Shown here piece after piece: positions 4,489-38,179 of a stretch of DNA of 40,738 nucleotides (position 1 is its first letter; each line of letters starts with the position of its first letter). The notes beneath the pieces were generated by a model. It did not search any database and was not told the DNA's origin. It saw nothing but the letters and a program-made list of their open reading frames with translations. This DNA comes from Holdemanella biformis DSM 3989. Lineage in GTDB: Bacteria > Bacillota_I > Bacilli_A > Erysipelotrichales > Erysipelotrichaceae. The position numbers and the translations under genes were made by a program. Where the stretch lies: assembly GCF_000156655.1 (NCBI RefSeq), contig NZ_DS996850.1, positions 101,567 through 142,304 on the forward strand, read 5' to 3'.

Positions 4489-5643
4489 GTATGGATGATC
4501 AATTGTGAGTACGAAATAAATCTTTTTATCCGATTGAATATGCTTTAGAAGCATATCTTCTATTTCTTCTTGTGAATACTTTTCTTCAAACGGAATTACC
4601 AAATCAAACACCAAATTTACATGTGTTGGTCCTGACACAATTCTAAAATCATGAAATCCCCATTTTGGATCAATTTGATGAATAGCTTTGACTACTTTTG
4701 CACGGTACAACTCTGTTTCTGGATCATTTACCTTTACTGGATCCATATGTAAAACTAAATCAATATTCATATTTTCTTTAACTTCACGCTCTATATTATC
4801 AATATGATCATGCGTTTCAAAAATATCTTTTGAGGAATCCACTTCTACATGGGCACTCGCAAAAATCTTATTTGGACCATAATTATGTAGCATCATATCA
4901 TGTACACCTAAAATTGCAGGATGTGCCATAATCCTATCTACAATATTGTGTACAAGTTCAGGATCTGGTGCTTCTCCAATTAAAGAATTAATCATATCTC
5001 TTAATAAGCCATAAGCTCCATAAAGGATAATTCCTGAAACTACAATACCCATATATCCATCTAGATTAAAGTGAAGAACTGGAGACAATAATGTAGATAC
5101 AAGAACTGCCGTTGTTCCACATACATCACTAATTGAATCTAATGCCGTTGCTTCTAATAGACTTGAATCATATGTTTTAGAAAGTTTCTTATTGTATGCA
5201 TACATCCAAAATTTAACTATGATAGAAATTAAAAGAATAATGACGGATGCAATTCTAAAATCAATACTTCCCGGATGAATCACTTTAGAAATACTTTCTT
5301 TTGCGGTTTCAAAACCAAGAACTAAAATCAATATACCTACAAATAAAGACGCAATTGTTTCCGTTCTTTCATGACCAAATGGATGATCCTTATCTGCTGG
5401 CTTATTTGCGAGATGAAAAGATAAAATCGAAATAATATTCGAACCCGCATCTGTTAAGTTATTTACTCCGTCAGCTTGAATAGATACCGAATGTACAATG
5501 GTACCAATCATAAACTTAATCACAAATAAAAATAAGTTACTAAATATACCCACAATCCCCGATAATTTACCAACATTTGTTCTTACATTGGCATCTTTTG
5601 TATCTTGATAATTCTTTATAAATCTACGCACTAAAAAATTCAT
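4483..5643 (-). CDS. Cation diffusion facilitator (CDF) family metal efflux transporter
   Basis: A 386-residue CDF antiporter, which exports divalent metal ions from the cytoplasm in exchange for protons. Membrane segment II carries SIQADGVNNLTDAGSN, the next loop DHPFGHERTE, and segment V ALDSISDV, which supply the metal site. The DxxxD pattern in segment V (in place of HxxxD) fits manganese/iron-type members better than zinc-type ones, but specificity is not proven. The C-terminal cytoplasmic ferredoxin-like dimer domain follows (VDRIMAHPAILGVHDMML to HVEVDSS), with an extra C-terminal extension of about 80 residues after it. GGTGG precedes ATG 5643. Transcribed alone, towards the deoR pair. 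Confidence 0.88.
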   Translation of the reverse strand: MNFLVRRFIKNYQDTKDANVRTNVGKLSGIVGIFSNLFLFVIKFMIGTIVHSVSIQADGVNNLTDAGSNIISILSFHLANKPADKDHPFGHERTETIASLFVGILILVLGFETAKESISKVIHPGSIDFRIASVIILLISIIVKFWMYAYNKKLSKTYDSSLLEATALDSISDVCGTTAVLVSTLLSPVLHFNLDGYMGIVVSGIILYGAYGLLRDMINSLIGEAPDPELVHNIVDRIMAHPAILGVHDMMLHNYGPNKIFASAHVEVDSSKDIFETHDHIDNIEREVKENMNIDLVLHMDPVKVNDPETELYRAKVVKAIHQIDPKWGFHDFRIVSGPTHVNLVFDLVIPFEEKYSQEEIEDMLLKHIQSDKKIYFVLTIDHPYA

Positions 5644-7178: not shown

Positions 7179-8096
7179 TTACATAATTCCGATTACACGA
7201 CCAATAATACCAACTACGAATAATGCGATAATAATTGTGATTGGAGAAACTTTCTTCTTCAATAATTTACAGCATAATAAAGTTAATAATAAAGCTGCAA
7301 GACCTGGAATCAAAGAATCTAAGTTTTGTTGTAAAGTTGTAACTTTGATTTGATTTAAACCAGTAGCTCCTAATGAAGAATATTGTTCTAATGCACTCTT
7401 AATTCCGTCAGCATTTCCTTTAATTTGTGACCAATCAATGTATGCACCTTCAGATTGAGTAACACTTGAAACAACTGGAGTAAATGAAATACTTACCCAG
7501 CGTTGAACCAATGCACCAATGATAAACATACCTAAAATACTTGCACCTTGAGTAATTTTACCAAGAAGTCCACCAGACATATCTTCAGCAATTTTAGTAC
7601 CTACATTGTAACCAAATTCTTGTGTATACCACATGAACGCTAAACGAATTACGTTCCATAATACGAAGAATAAGATTGGTCCTAAAATGTTTCCACTTAA
7701 TGCTAAAGAAGCACCTAAAGCACCTAAGATTGGACGCATTGTAAACCAGAATACTGGGTCACCAACACCAGCTAAAGGACCCATCATACCAACTTTAACA
7801 CCTTGGATTGCTGTATCATCTACATTTTCACCATTTGCTTTTTCTTCTTCCAAAGCAAGTGTAACACCCATTACTGGACTTGATACATAAGGGTGAGTAT
7901 TATAGAACTCCATGTGACGTTTTAAAGCGGCAATTTGATCTTCCTTGTTAGGATATAATTTTTTGATTGCAGGAATGATTGAATAGCACCATCCACCATT
8001 TTGCATACGTTCATAGTTCCAAGAACCTTGAAGGAATTGATGACGCCACCAAACTTTTTTACGATCTTGTTTAGTTAATGTAATTTTTTCAGCCAT
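7179..8096 (-). CDS. manZ: PTS mannose/fructose/sorbose family transporter subunit IID
   Basis: A 305-residue IID subunit of a mannose-class phosphotransferase system, which together with IIC forms the sugar channel in the membrane. Seen here: KKVWWRHQFLQGSWNYERMQ near the N-terminus, the MQNGGWCYSIIPAIKKLY segment, the long cytoplasmic helix KRHMEFYNTHPY, SPVMGVTLALEEE near 90, VGMMGPLAGVGDP, and hydrophobic C-terminal helices. ATG 8096 is preferred to ATG 8102 because AAGGAGG sits only three bases from the latter but nine from the former. It lies 23 bases after the IIC gene and before DUF956. Sugar specificity of the class is broad: mannose, glucose, fructose, N-acylglucosamine. Confidence 0.93.
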   Translation of the reverse strand: MAEKITLTKQDRKKVWWRHQFLQGSWNYERMQNGGWCYSIIPAIKKLYPNKEDQIAALKRHMEFYNTHPYVSSPVMGVTLALEEEKANGENVDDTAIQGVKVGMMGPLAGVGDPVFWFTMRPILGALGASLALSGNILGPILFFVLWNVIRLAFMWYTQEFGYNVGTKIAEDMSGGLLGKITQGASILGMFIIGALVQRWVSISFTPVVSSVTQSEGAYIDWSQIKGNADGIKSALEQYSSLGATGLNQIKVTTLQQNLDSLIPGLAALLLTLLCCKLLKKKVSPITIIIALFVVGIIGRVIGIM

Positions 8097-16000: not shown

Positions 16001-17822
16001 TTTCAACTTCATAAATCATAGCACCAAAACTAGGTACGTTGACTTCAATCATATATGGCTGATTATGTCTTGCTAGACGCATAGCTTGTACTTCTTGAGG
16101 CGTATGGTCTTTTAAATTTCCATTATATTTATCCCACTCTGTATTTAAGATTTCCTTATATTTACCTTTACAAGGAACACCAAATTGTTGGTGATCATAT
16201 GGATTTGTAGAGAAATTCATAATAATGACAAAGTCTTTCTTTGACCCTCTACGAATAAATGAGAACGTATTTTGTCCAACATTATCTGCATCAATCCAAC
16301 AGAAACGACTCGGATCATAATCCTGATTGAAGAATGCATCATTTTCTGTGTAGATCTTACCTAAATCTTCACACAGATGTTTAAACGCATCATGCATTGG
16401 ATAATCCAATAAGAACCAGTCACAACTCTTTTGTTCATCCCACTCACGCAATTGACCAATTTCATTACCCATAAAATTCAATTTTTTACCAGGGTGTGCA
16501 AACATATATACATATAAAGCTCTTGCCTGGGCAAATTTATCTTCATAGCTTCCCCACATCTTATCTACAATGGTTGCCTTACCATGTACAACTTCATCAT
16601 GACTAAATGGCAAGATAAATCTTTCAGAATAGAAATAAGCCATTGAGAATGTAATATCGTGGTGATGCCACTTGCGATAAATTGGATCTCTTTTCAAATA
16701 AGACAATGTATCGTTCATCCATCCAAGATCCCACTTGTAGTCAAATCCTAAGCCTCCTGCATAACTAGGTTTCGTCACATTAGGGAAATCACTAGAGTCT
16801 TCTGCAATCAACATGATTTTTCCTTGATGTTCTTCATTCAACAAGTGATTCATACGCTTCATAAAATCACATGCACCTTCATTTACTCCATTATTTTTAT
16901 TTCCATGCCAGAAAATCGCATTACTGATCGCATCCATTCTCAATCCATCTACATGATAAACGTCTATCCAGAAATTAGCTGCAGACATTAAGAATGAACG
17001 AACCTCTTCTTTCCATAAGTCAAAGTTAGCTGTTCCCCATTCACTGTTGGCATCTTCTGGTTTTGCATATTCATATAAAGGCGTACCATCAAACATGCCT
17101 AATGCATAATTATCCTTCACAAAGTGCACTGGAACAAAGTCCATGATAACACCGATACCCGCTTCATGAAGTGCATTCACAAAGTGCATCAATTCATGAT
17201 TTGTTCCATAACGAGATGTACTTGAAAAATAACCCGTACATTGATATCCCCAAGAACCATCAAATGGATATTCACATAACGGCATAACTTCTACATGTGT
17301 AAAGTGATGTTTTTTACAGTGTTCAATTAGATCCTTTTCAATTTCATGATATTGTACAAATTCTTCGTTCTCATCCTCTTTTTTCCACGAACCAACATGC
17401 ATTTCATAAATATTCACAGGAGAATCAAAACCCTTATTTCTTTGATTCAACCACTCTTTGTCAGTCCATCCATCATAACTTAAATCCGATATGATACTTG
17501 CCGTGTTCGGTCTTAATTCACTATAAAAAGCATATGGATCCATTTTATCTACCAATTCACCATTTGCCTGCCATACACGATATTTATAAGAATCCTGATT
17601 CTTTGCACCTTGCACAAAGCATTCCCAAATACCACGTTTATCTTTTTTCATTTTACTAGCTTGATCATCCCAATTATTGAATGTCCCAATTACTGATATA
17701 TTTTTTGCGTTTGGAGCATATACTCGAAAGCGAACGCCATCCCCTTCTAAATGTGCACCAAAAATATTATATGCATGTATATCACGCCCTTCAAAAAAGG
17801 CTTTTGTCTTTCTTTGATCCAT
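15996..17822 (-). CDS. glgB: 1,4-alpha-glucan (glycogen) branching enzyme
   Basis: A 608-residue GH13 branching enzyme that cuts an alpha-1,4 glucan and rejoins the piece by an alpha-1,6 link. An N-terminal CBM48 domain (about 20-110, with VIGTFNNWDDQ) precedes the catalytic barrel. Key residues are the nucleophile Asp297 in VDGLRMDAISNAIFW, the acid/base Glu341 in LIAEDSSD, the conserved PFSHDEVVHGK further on, and NFMGNEIGQ. ATG 17822 follows GGAGG by ten bases and gives the family length. No other glycogen genes (glgC, glgA, glgP) are in the window, so it is an orphan here. A cre-like site lies upstream. Confidence 0.93.
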   Translation of the reverse strand: MDQRKTKAFFEGRDIHAYNIFGAHLEGDGVRFRVYAPNAKNISVIGTFNNWDDQASKMKKDKRGIWECFVQGAKNQDSYKYRVWQANGELVDKMDPYAFYSELRPNTASIISDLSYDGWTDKEWLNQRNKGFDSPVNIYEMHVGSWKKEDENEEFVQYHEIEKDLIEHCKKHHFTHVEVMPLCEYPFDGSWGYQCTGYFSSTSRYGTNHELMHFVNALHEAGIGVIMDFVPVHFVKDNYALGMFDGTPLYEYAKPEDANSEWGTANFDLWKEEVRSFLMSAANFWIDVYHVDGLRMDAISNAIFWHGNKNNGVNEGACDFMKRMNHLLNEEHQGKIMLIAEDSSDFPNVTKPSYAGGLGFDYKWDLGWMNDTLSYLKRDPIYRKWHHHDITFSMAYFYSERFILPFSHDEVVHGKATIVDKMWGSYEDKFAQARALYVYMFAHPGKKLNFMGNEIGQLREWDEQKSCDWFLLDYPMHDAFKHLCEDLGKIYTENDAFFNQDYDPSRFCWIDADNVGQNTFSFIRRGSKKDFVIIMNFSTNPYDHQQFGVPCKGKYKEILNTEWDKYNGNLKDHTPQEVQAMRLARHNQPYMIEVNVPSFGAMIYEVEK

Positions 17823-29540: not shown

Positions 29541-29569
29541 TTGCATAAAATAAACTTTATCCGTATAAT
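29541..29569 (+). promoter_or_regulatory. Promoter of the riboswitch-controlled oxidoreductase gene
   Basis: TTGCAT (29541-29546), a 17-base spacer and a perfect TATAAT (29564-29569). Transcription would start at the GGG of 29575-29577, exactly where the riboswitch P1 stem begins. Confidence 0.85.
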
Positions 29570-29575
29570 AGTCCG

Positions 29576-29640
29576 GGTTATATAAGTTCATGATATGGTT
29601 GAACGTTCTTACCTACTACCGAAAATAGTAGACTATAGCC
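29576..29640 (+). promoter_or_regulatory. Purine riboswitch aptamer (guanine-type, variant core)
   Basis: Three-way junction of the purine class. P1 pairs GGTTATA (29576-29582) with TATAGCC (29634-29640). P2 pairs GTTCA with TGAAC around a loop holding the conserved GATATGG. P3 pairs TACTA with TAGTA around CCGAAAA. J3/1 reads GACTAT with C at the specificity position (xpt C74, base 29633), which indicates a guanine-like ligand. Against the xpt aptamer, the U25-A45 pair appears missing on both sides, and J2/3 reads GTTCTTACC where GTTTCTACC is usual. No terminator follows; AGGAGG lies about ten bases after P1, so control is probably at translation. Confidence 0.85.
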
Positions 29641-29661
29641 TTCAAGCAGGAGGAAAATAAA

Positions 29662-31032
29662 ATGCAATACGATATCATTATTATTGGTGCTGGGCCTGGA
29701 GGTATTTTCTCAGCATATGAGTTATTAAAAAACAAACCTGAATTAAAAATTGGTGTATTTGAAGCAGGTGCTCCATTAGAAAAAAGAAAATGTCCAATCG
29801 ATGGAAAGAAAATCAAATCATGTATCCACTGTAAATCATGTGCTATCATGAATGGTTTTGGTGGAGCCGGAGCATTCAGTGATGGAAAATATAATATCAC
29901 AAATGAATTTGGTGGAAACCTATATGAATATGTAGGTGAACAAGAAGCTATCGATTTAATGGAATATGTGGATGAAATCAACTGCAAGATGGGTGGAGAA
30001 AAAACGCGTTTATACGCAAACTCAGATGCAGCTATCGCTAAAAAATGTCTTCAAAATGATCTTCACTTATTAAAGGCAAAAGTTCGTCACTTAGGAACAG
30101 ATATTAATTATGTTGTACTTGAAAACTTATACAATGATTTAAAAGACAAAGCCGATTTTCATTTCTTTAAACACATTGATATAGTCAATAAAATTGAAGA
30201 TGGATATGAAGTTGTTTGTGGAGATGAAACATATACATCTACACAATGTATCATTTCTACAGGTCGTTCTGGAAGTAAATGGATGGAATCTGTATGTTCA
30301 AATCTAGGTATTGAAACAAAAAGTGATCGTGTAGACATTGGTGTTCGTGTTGAATTAAATGCCGATACATTCTCAGAATTAACAGACTCATTATATGAAT
30401 CTAAAATTGTATATCGTTCAAAGAAATACCAAGATCGCGTTCGTACATTCTGTATGAATCCTAGAGGTGTTGTCGTAAACGAAAACACAAACGGAATCAT
30501 CACTGTAAATGGTCACAGTTATGAAGATCCAGCTCGTTTCACAAATAACACAAACTTTGCCCTATTAGTATCAAACCACTTTACAGAACCATTCTCACAA
30601 AGTAACCAATATGGTGAAAGTATTGCCCGCCTATCCAATATGCTTGGTGGTGGTGTTATCGTACAACGCTTTGGTGATTTGATTCGTGGACAACGCTCAA
30701 CTCCAAGTCGTATTGCACAAGGATTCGTAACTCCTACATTGAAAGCTACACCAGGAGACTTATCTCTAGTTATTCCTAAACGTCAACTAGATGACATTAT
30801 CGAAATGATTTATGCCCTTGATAAAGTATGTCCATCAACAGCAAGTGATGATACATTATTATATGGTGTTGAAGTTAAATTCTATAACATGCAAGTAAAA
30901 GTAGACAAAAACTTAGAAACAAAACACAAAGGACTATTTGTTATCGGAGACTGTTCAGGTGTAACACACTCATTAAGTCATGCCAGTGCATCTGGTGTAT
31001 ATGTCGCTAGACACATTACAGAAAATCTATAA
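29662..31032 (+). CDS. COG2509-type FAD-dependent oxidoreductase
   Basis: A 456-residue FAD-binding protein of the uncharacterised COG2509 family. The dinucleotide fold begins at residue 4 with IIIIGAGPGGIFSA. A conserved four-cysteine cluster (C44, C54, C57 and C60, in KRKCP and CIHCKSC) is followed by the family signature NGFGGAGAFSDGKY. The C-terminal FAD site reads GLFVIGDCSGVTHSLSHASA near 428-447. Cysteines and FAD suggest a redox enzyme, possibly holding a metal, but the substrate is unknown. AGGAGG precedes ATG 29662. It is transcribed alone between a purine riboswitch and a strong terminator, so its level should follow a purine, an unexpected link that hints at a role in purine metabolism. 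Confidence 0.88.
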   Translation: MQYDIIIIGAGPGGIFSAYELLKNKPELKIGVFEAGAPLEKRKCPIDGKKIKSCIHCKSCAIMNGFGGAGAFSDGKYNITNEFGGNLYEYVGEQEAIDLMEYVDEINCKMGGEKTRLYANSDAAIAKKCLQNDLHLLKAKVRHLGTDINYVVLENLYNDLKDKADFHFFKHIDIVNKIEDGYEVVCGDETYTSTQCIISTGRSGSKWMESVCSNLGIETKSDRVDIGVRVELNADTFSELTDSLYESKIVYRSKKYQDRVRTFCMNPRGVVVNENTNGIITVNGHSYEDPARFTNNTNFALLVSNHFTEPFSQSNQYGESIARLSNMLGGGVIVQRFGDLIRGQRSTPSRIAQGFVTPTLKATPGDLSLVIPKRQLDDIIEMIYALDKVCPSTASDDTLLYGVEVKFYNMQVKVDKNLETKHKGLFVIGDCSGVTHSLSHASASGVYVARHITENL

Positions 31033-36850: not shown

Positions 36851-38179
36851 GTGGAAAAATTTTTTAAATTGAACGAGAAAGGTTCAAACGTTAAGACGGA
36901 GCTTATCGCTGGTCTTACAACATTCTTGGCTATGGCCTACATTCTTGGGGTTAACCCTTCAGTTTTAGCAGATGCTGGTATGGACAAGGCCTCTGTATTC
37001 CTTGCGACTGCAATTAGTGCGGGTGTCGCAAGTATTATTATGGGTCTTGTTGCCAACTATCCAGTCGCATTAGCTTCAGGTATGGGTGTAAACGCATTGT
37101 TTGCCTATACAATCTGTGGACAGATGGGCTTTAGCTGGGCAGCTGCATTAAGTGCTGTATTCATTTCAGGTGTTATCTTTATTCTTATTTCTGTTACTGG
37201 TGTTCGTAAAGCTATTATCAATGCGATTCCAGTACAATTAAAGTTGGCAATTGGAGCTGGAATTGGTTTCTTCATTGCGTTTGTTGGTTTAAAAAATGCG
37301 GGTATTATTGTTGCTAGTCCTGCAACATTTGTGACAATCGGAAACTTAACAGATCCAAAAGTATTACTAGCTATTGTTGGTTTATTAATTACGATTGCAT
37401 TAGTTATTAAAAATGTTCCTGCTGCCGTTTTTGTAGGTATGGTTATCACAGCTATTATTGGTATCATCCTTGGATTCATGGGAATAGCTGAAATGCCTAC
37501 TTTACCTGAACGTTTTATTTCGTTCGATTTTGAATTACAAGCCTTTGGAGCTTGCTTCTCAGGAATCTCTGAATTGTTCGCAAATCCATTCCAGGCTTTC
37601 GTTGTGATTTTCTCATTCTTGTTCGTTGACTTCTTTGATACAGCAGGAACACTTGTTGCGATTGGTAACCGTATTGGTTTAATCAATGATAAAGGTGAAC
37701 TTGAAAATGCTGAACAAGCATTGGTTGCAGATGCATTTGGTACAGTATTTGGTGCTGTTTTAGGTACGAGTACAGTAACTAGCTTTGTTGAATCTAGCTC
37801 TGGTGTTGGTGTCGGAGGACGTACAGGTTTAACTGCATGTACATCAGGTGTTTGTTTCTTACTAGCCGTATTCTTATCACCACTTATCTTAAGTACAGTT
37901 ACGAATGCAGTTACTGCACCAGCATTGATCGTTGTTGGTATTATGATGGCTCAACAATTAAAAGGTATTGATTGGGATGATATGATTTTTGCAGCAGCTG
38001 GATTTGTCACTGTTATTATGATGATCTTAATGTATTCTATTTCAAATGGTATCGCATGTGGATTTATCGTTTATACAGTTGCCATGATTGCTGCAGGTAA
38101 AGCAAAAGAAGTTCACCCAACGGTTTGGGCATTAATGGTTATCTTCGTATTATACTTTGCAACACCTTATATTATGTAA
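36851..38179 (+). CDS. NCS2 family purine permease (PbuG/AzgA type)
   Basis: A 442-residue membrane transporter of the nucleobase-cation symporter 2 family, AzgA-like branch, which takes up hypoxanthine, guanine or adenine with protons. Family features: N-terminal ELIAGLTTFLAMAYILGVNP, the ALASGMGVNALFAYTICGQM segment near 75-95, DFFDTAGTLVAIGNRIGL near 265, and GTSTVTSFVESSSGVGVGGRTGLTA near 305, the substrate-site region. About 12 to 14 membrane segments. GTG 36851 follows GAAGGAGAG. It lies behind addA with its own promoter, and a bidirectional terminator follows. Exact base specificity cannot be read from sequence. Confidence 0.92.
   Translation: MEKFFKLNEKGSNVKTELIAGLTTFLAMAYILGVNPSVLADAGMDKASVFLATAISAGVASIIMGLVANYPVALASGMGVNALFAYTICGQMGFSWAAALSAVFISGVIFILISVTGVRKAIINAIPVQLKLAIGAGIGFFIAFVGLKNAGIIVASPATFVTIGNLTDPKVLLAIVGLLITIALVIKNVPAAVFVGMVITAIIGIILGFMGIAEMPTLPERFISFDFELQAFGACFSGISELFANPFQAFVVIFSFLFVDFFDTAGTLVAIGNRIGLINDKGELENAEQALVADAFGTVFGAVLGTSTVTSFVESSSGVGVGGRTGLTACTSGVCFLLAVFLSPLILSTVTNAVTAPALIVVGIMMAQQLKGIDWDDMIFAAAGFVTVIMMILMYSISNGIACGFIVYTVAMIAAGKAKEVHPTVWALMVIFVLYFATPYIM

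Follow-up and report, generated by a model that had tools for sequence, protein, structure and literature searches.

The add adenine riboswitch of Vibrio vulnificus switches translation ON, its Shine-Dalgarno sequence being freed when the aptamer forms. The guanine riboswitches described are mostly OFF switches (PMC9295807, PMC11477304). The direct ligand contacts are made by U22, U47, U51 and position 74 (PMC3764141), and in xpt the C at position 74 is the Watson-Crick partner of guanine (PMC3764141, PMC11477304). C50 is listed among the universally conserved J2/3 residues and is part of the junction core (PMC3764141).

Guanine-II, xanthine-II and 2'-dG-III are rare variants that keep the same scaffold and precede atypical genes, and ON regulation is predicted for each of them (PMC9295807). 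Xanthine-II carries U51G with insertions in J2/3 and J3/1, and guanine-II has a one-nucleotide insertion in J2/3 (PMC9295807). An 8-oxoguanine class is mentioned as well (PMC9295807).

Here, we analysed a stretch of 40,738 nucleotides (the window) from the 2.5 Mb genome of Holdemanella biformis DSM 3989, in which a purine-class aptamer precedes a gene for a COG2509-type flavoenzyme. The features of this locus all lie on the plus strand. We consider it likely that the leader is a guanine-type purine riboswitch working as a translational ON switch for the flavoenzyme.

The aptamer and its junction

When the whole window was searched with cmscan against all Rfam families, RF00167 (Purine) was the sole match above the gathering threshold. 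It spans 29558-29655 with 51.0 bits against a gathering value of 37 and an E-value of 6.7e-6 for the window and 4227 families. The initial annotation had claimed a purine-class fold with C74 kept, and this covariance search, which it had proposed, bears the claim out, with L2 reading GAUAUGG and J3/1 reading AC. Our own covariance models R1 and R2 give the aptamer 66.9 and 84.1 bits, respectively, with the window sequence in both training sets. Covariation in the 18-aptamer set backs the three-stem junction.

The aptamer occupies 29574-29641. Its P1 pairs GGGUUAUA (29575-29582) with UAUAGCCU (29634-29641) in the Rfam alignment and the minimum-energy fold alike. In the Rfam alignment, J1/2 is UAA (29583-29585), the first U being U22 of xpt, and J3/1 is AC (29632-29633), the C being C74. 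P2-L2 is GUUCAU-GAUAUGG-UUGAAC (29586-29604), where 29586-29591 pair with 29599-29604, the 25-45 closing pair is G-C and the distal one U-U. The 8-nt J2/3 (29605-29612) follows, and then P3-L3, CUACUA-CCGAAAA-UAGUAG (29613-29631), where 29613-29618 pair with 29626-29631. The kissing bases GG of L2 and CC of L3 are present, and the ligand-contact residues U22, U47, U51 and C74 are all kept. Upstream, a candidate -10 box TATAAT (29564-29569), read by us and not listed by the consensus scan, would place the transcription start near 29575, at the first P1 strand; a weak -35 match, TTGCAT, lies at 29541-29546.

The same leader occurs in Holdemanella porci (G021, contig NZ_VUMR01000042.1) with 49.9 bits for RF00167. 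It has loop changes relative to the window that preserve the hairpins. The leader is confined to two Holdemanella genomes, so there is minimal covariation within it. The sequences show a purine-class aptamer that is conserved in a second Holdemanella species with its contact residues kept. Since U22, U47, U51 and C74 are kept, the ligand sensed is most likely guanine.

For comparison of the junction, 87 of 95 other purine aptamers could be parsed from the loci gathered in this analysis. The initial annotation took the U25-A45 pair as deleted on both sides, which is a matter of alignment choice: a G-C pair sits there, within a six-position P2. Among the 87, this pair is U-A in 40 and G-C in 20, and 35 have a P2 of six positions, so a junction deletion was ruled out as a specific mark. 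The L3 sequence CCGAAAA had likewise been singled out against CCGUAAA; L3 commonly varies among purine aptamers.

The claim of an altered J2/3 holds in part. The window has GUUCUUAC in place of the usual GUUUCUAC, so that C49 and U50 replace U and C while U47 and U51 are kept, and H. porci has GUUCAUAC. Position 49 is U in 81 and C in 6 of the 87 aptamers, and leaders of the xpt and permease types in Limosilactobacillus, Bacillus and Liquorilactobacillus carry U49C too; since it precedes such canonical genes, it was rejected as a variant mark. Position 51 is U throughout the 87. Position 50 is C in all 87, but U in the window and A in H. porci. As U49C is ordinary and position 50 is invariant elsewhere, the non-C residue at 50 is the true oddity.

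Wider scans agree on this position. With two places of J2/3 left free, all other matches of the pattern in 295 genomes read GTTTCTACC, with C50. The C49 form, searched as TATAA..ATATGG..GTTCNTACC over 84,980 species genomes, returned 26 stretches, ten of which Rfam recognised as purine aptamers, nine with GTTCCTACC and one, from H. porci, with GTTCATACC. Within that pattern and those genomes, a structured aptamer with a non-C residue at 50 was confined to Holdemanella. Judged from these alignments, it is the one unusual core change, rare and in the second shell. C50 is otherwise invariant and belongs to the junction core, so replacing it could make binding weaker or different. The two substitutions, at 49 and 50, probably adjust affinity or kinetics and leave the choice of ligand as it is.

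The initial annotation raised the idea of a changed specificity. In such a reading, the changes at 49 and 50 would direct the aptamer to another purine that the enzyme handles, such as 8-oxoguanine, xanthine, a nucleoside or a modified purine. In its favour is position 50 itself, changed in both Holdemanella species; the scaffold relatives, ON switches before atypical genes, did switch ligand by junction changes (PMC9295807), and a model derived from COG2509 leaders found aptamers also before 8-oxoguanine deaminase, guanine deaminase and XdhA genes. However, the four contact residues are the same and J2/3 still has 8 nt, whereas xanthine-II requires U51G with insertions and guanine-II a J2/3 insertion (PMC9295807). 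Moreover, the COG2509 leaders of other lineages have the canonical C50, so the association with the gene is independent of the Holdemanella change and needs no such change. Altogether a new ligand is conceivable but not indicated, and we regard it as unlikely. The leader could serve as a natural experiment on position 50 of the junction, to tell whether it tunes ligand choice or changes it.

A second alternative is that the aptamer is a decaying relic, now binding poorly and heading for loss, toward a short aptamer-less leader as in the sister genus. The change of C50 would suit it, and so would the overall fold of the window RNA, no stronger than that of shuffled sequences (z -0.24), and the 90%-identical homologues of the sister genus (L092, L093) that have no aptamer. 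Yet two species retain all three stems (P1, P2, P3), both loops and the pocket intact despite the diverged flanking DNA, which makes decay improbable.

Probable translational ON control

The terminator scan found none in the window leader. The 3' strand of P1 is followed by UC-AAGCA-GGAGG, where GGAGG (29649-29653) is the Shine-Dalgarno sequence, 8 nt before the ATG. A predicted hairpin of five pairs, CCUUC-AAGCA-GGAGG (29639-29653, -4.0 kcal/mol), joins the Shine-Dalgarno sequence to bases of the P1 3' strand. The CCU is common to that strand and the anti-Shine-Dalgarno strand, so pairing of CCUUC with the Shine-Dalgarno sequence and of CCU within P1 are mutually exclusive. The five pairs are identical in the two species, and the loop is AAGCA in the window and AAAUA in H. 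porci.

In folding calculations with the aptamer imposed, the Shine-Dalgarno sequence is unpaired at ~90-99% in the window RNA and 84-94% in H. porci. Folded without constraint, the H. porci RNA leaves it unpaired at only 3-5% and the window RNA at 51-61%; the two ensembles of the window RNA are nearly equal in computed energy (-16.29 with the aptamer imposed and -16.45 with the hairpin imposed).

These alternatives suggest how the switch would operate. Without ligand, CCUUC would pair with GGAGG and hide the ribosome site. A purine, most likely guanine, would bind the junction so that P1 closes and withdraws CCU from the hairpin. The Shine-Dalgarno sequence would then be freed, and the enzyme, presumably a part of purine metabolism, would be produced when the purine is abundant. 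Because the P1 3' strand can pair either in P1 or with the Shine-Dalgarno sequence, ligand binding should turn translation ON. This likely direction, missed in the initial annotation, lets the atypical gene fit without a new ligand.

The opposite control, an ordinary guanine OFF switch with expression reduced by the ligand, like those of xpt and pbuX, would match most described guanine riboswitches and the canonical pbuX riboswitch of the same genome, but it is the least probable reading, as the window leader has no terminator and a free Shine-Dalgarno sequence in the aptamer fold and other COG2509 leaders have ON-type terminators.

The purine genes of this genome were surveyed around contig C29, where that pbuX riboswitch lies. 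Its aptamer scores 75.7 bits (L001:1501-1602), and in the leader the antiterminator GAAUCAAC/GUUGAUUC overlaps the terminator, an arrangement of the OFF type. The genes run in one direction (L396:1658-7041), pbuX being followed by those for the FAD, 2Fe-2S and Mo subunits of a xanthine dehydrogenase-related molybdenum hydroxylase and by a MocA-like gene; at 664.7 bits, the XdhA-like subunit does not reach the equivalog cut-off of 780. In the window itself, an NCS2-type permease (Xan_ur_permease, 129 bits; no NCBIfam match) is encoded at 36851-38179, 6 kb downstream of the riboswitch gene.

The COG2509 flavoenzyme and its purine associations

The downstream gene (29662-31032) encodes a COG2509-type FAD-dependent oxidoreductase of 456 residues. 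Its FAD-depend_C domain (PF21688) scores 42.8 bits against a curated cut-off of 27, and the cysteines C44, C54, C57 and C60 show no variation among 57 homologues. The gene is atypical for a purine riboswitch, as first annotated. The four cysteines are consistent with an Fe-S ([4Fe-4S]) or zinc site. An AlphaFold model reached a mean pLDDT of 89.6, with 64-71 in the four-cysteine region, when built with the 57 diverse homologues in place of 9 close ones, which gave a pLDDT of 50. Among solved structures, Foldseek and VIA-align place it nearest to VP0956 of Vibrio parahaemolyticus (3nlc), with Z 36.4 and rmsd 2.9 over 410 residues; aminoacetone-oxidase/HI0933-type flavoproteins come next at Z ~23. 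VP0956 has the same fold but 23% identity, and its phmmer alignment shows no four-cysteine motif. The literature on COG2509, VP0956 and Holdemanella riboswitches held nothing useful, and no COG2509 function was found there.

COG2509 is widespread: in the window's family 122 of 196 genomes sampled carry it, as do 98 of 196 in Clostridia. A gene-first survey searched ~200 distinct COG2509 loci of the two groups with R1, a covariance model made from 18 purine aptamers. An aptamer lies directly upstream in three of them, those of H. porci (L111), G012 (L150; 34.6 bits in Rfam, slightly below threshold) and G555 (L193; 40.7 bits), and the xpt-pbuX-COG2509 operon of G102 begins with a canonical aptamer. 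The remaining loci of this set gave no aptamer with R1.

The aptamer-first survey used R2, made from four direct leaders, over 273 family and 391 Clostridia genomes. Among the loci examined, COG2509 was newly seen as the next gene after the aptamer in G835 and G863, which are of one genus, and in G1042 and G1077. These are 4 cases in ~53 loci outside the training set, where ~0.03 would be expected with random downstream genes; this comparison assumes independent cases, an assumption that G835 and G863 break, and with three cases the probability is ~3e-6.

Thus, the collection of COG2509 leaders that had been proposed yields purine aptamers directly before the gene in six further genomes (G012, G835, G863, G555, G1042 and G1077), though with junctions canonical at C50 and with most homologues free of an aptamer. 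Four of the six leaders have ON-type terminators that use aptamer strands: AAACUGCCUA/UAGGCAGUUU followed by a T run in G012, GUUGACUAC/GUAGUCAAC followed by a T run in G555, AACUGCC/GGCAGUU in G1042 and CCGACAGCCGG/CCGGUUGACGG in G1077. In the four-leader alignment, 9 of 20 pairs are kept with changes on both sides, against 0-2 in slid controls.

Broader rules were tried and rejected. COG2509 is no universal riboswitch target, as most homologues in the family and Clostridia are without an aptamer. Nor is its second subgroup (G012, G1042, G1077) always under riboswitch control, with none in 30 further loci. The leaders of close relatives' COG2509 genes matched no Rfam family. In six related genomes (L104, L105, L106, L108, L110, L113), a short element, TAGGAAA-TTTCAC-TTTCCC, recurs between the COG2509 promoter and the Shine-Dalgarno sequence, also with no Rfam match.

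Same-strand neighbours of COG2509 were tallied, with names by NCBIfam where scanned. In four family genomes (L092, L093, L095, L097) the gene immediately upstream is deoD for purine-nucleoside phosphorylase, and L101 looks similarly arranged by eye. The deoD loci are in the same chromosomal place as the Holdemanella riboswitch, with ksgA-rnmV-yitT on one side and addB-addA on the other, and the riboswitch stands where they carry deoD. Elsewhere, COG2509 is beside xpt in L091 and L262, pbuX in L091, adenylosuccinate synthase purA in six loci from both the family and Clostridia, purF in L202, and a nucleoside phosphorylase-like gene with an ABC permease in L265. The 80 upstream neighbours are otherwise mixed in the Pfam tally, dnaB being the most frequent with 5. 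The purine link is recurrent, not dominant.

In the sister genus (L092, L093), a region ~90 nt before COG2509 holds a promoter similar by eye, ATCCGTATAAT, and GGC/GCC outer strands. An A-rich stretch takes the place of the aptamer, suggestive of aptamer gain or loss at this site.

As several lineages have purine aptamers or purine genes beside COG2509, we place the enzyme in purine metabolism; it is probably a purine-linked flavoenzyme, and a purine-linked redox reaction with no assigned enzyme is possible. The fuller proposal is tentative: COG2509 may be a purine-pathway flavoenzyme for a redox step on a purine or purine-derived metabolite that has no assigned enzyme, put independently by several lineages under purine-activated ON riboswitches, with a position-50 variant in Holdemanella. 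The riboswitch and the deoD, xpt-pbuX, purA and purF neighbours narrow the substrate search to purine metabolism in anaerobic gut bacteria.

Other purine aptamers were seen in the surveys. One Clostridia genome (G958; L384, L385) has three matches. One precedes an 8-oxoguanine deaminase that passes the NCBIfam cut-off, another a guanine deaminase with a permease, and the third XdhA of xanthine dehydrogenase; the two matches that could be parsed have a 6-nt L3 (CCGUAA). In two family genomes, aptamers directly precede MATE-family efflux transporters (L391 ~2898-2965 and L394 ~4804-4872), which looks like purine-triggered efflux. Adenine-type aptamers with U74 and 6-nt L2 and L3 (L386 ~7805-7871 in G530 and L387 ~16587-16653 in G1079) have an amidohydrolase gene on one side and, on the other, a distant tyrS with an apparent T-box leader.

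Comparison with known purine riboswitches

The window aptamer is closest to guanine-I (xpt, RF00167), with which it shares the three-stem junction, the L2/L3 kissing bases, U22, U47, U51, C74 and the 8-nt J2/3. It differs in U49C, in the predicted translational ON control and in C50, which is conserved in guanine-I but replaced by U in the window and A in H. porci. Unlike the guanine-I targets, the gene is no transporter, PRT or biosynthesis gene.

Guanine-II, xanthine-II and 2'-dG-III have other hallmarks. Against xanthine-II, U51 is kept and neither J2/3 (8 nt) nor J3/1 (2 nt) has an insertion. The guanine-II insertion is likewise absent from the 8-nt J2/3, where a U48 deletion together with an insertion after C50 would look like two substitutions. 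Neither is the gene a PRT, allantoinase or nucleoside hydrolase, as are the targets of these variants. In mechanism, the leader is predicted to act like the add riboswitch of V. vulnificus, although the two are not homologous and position 74 is U in add and C here.
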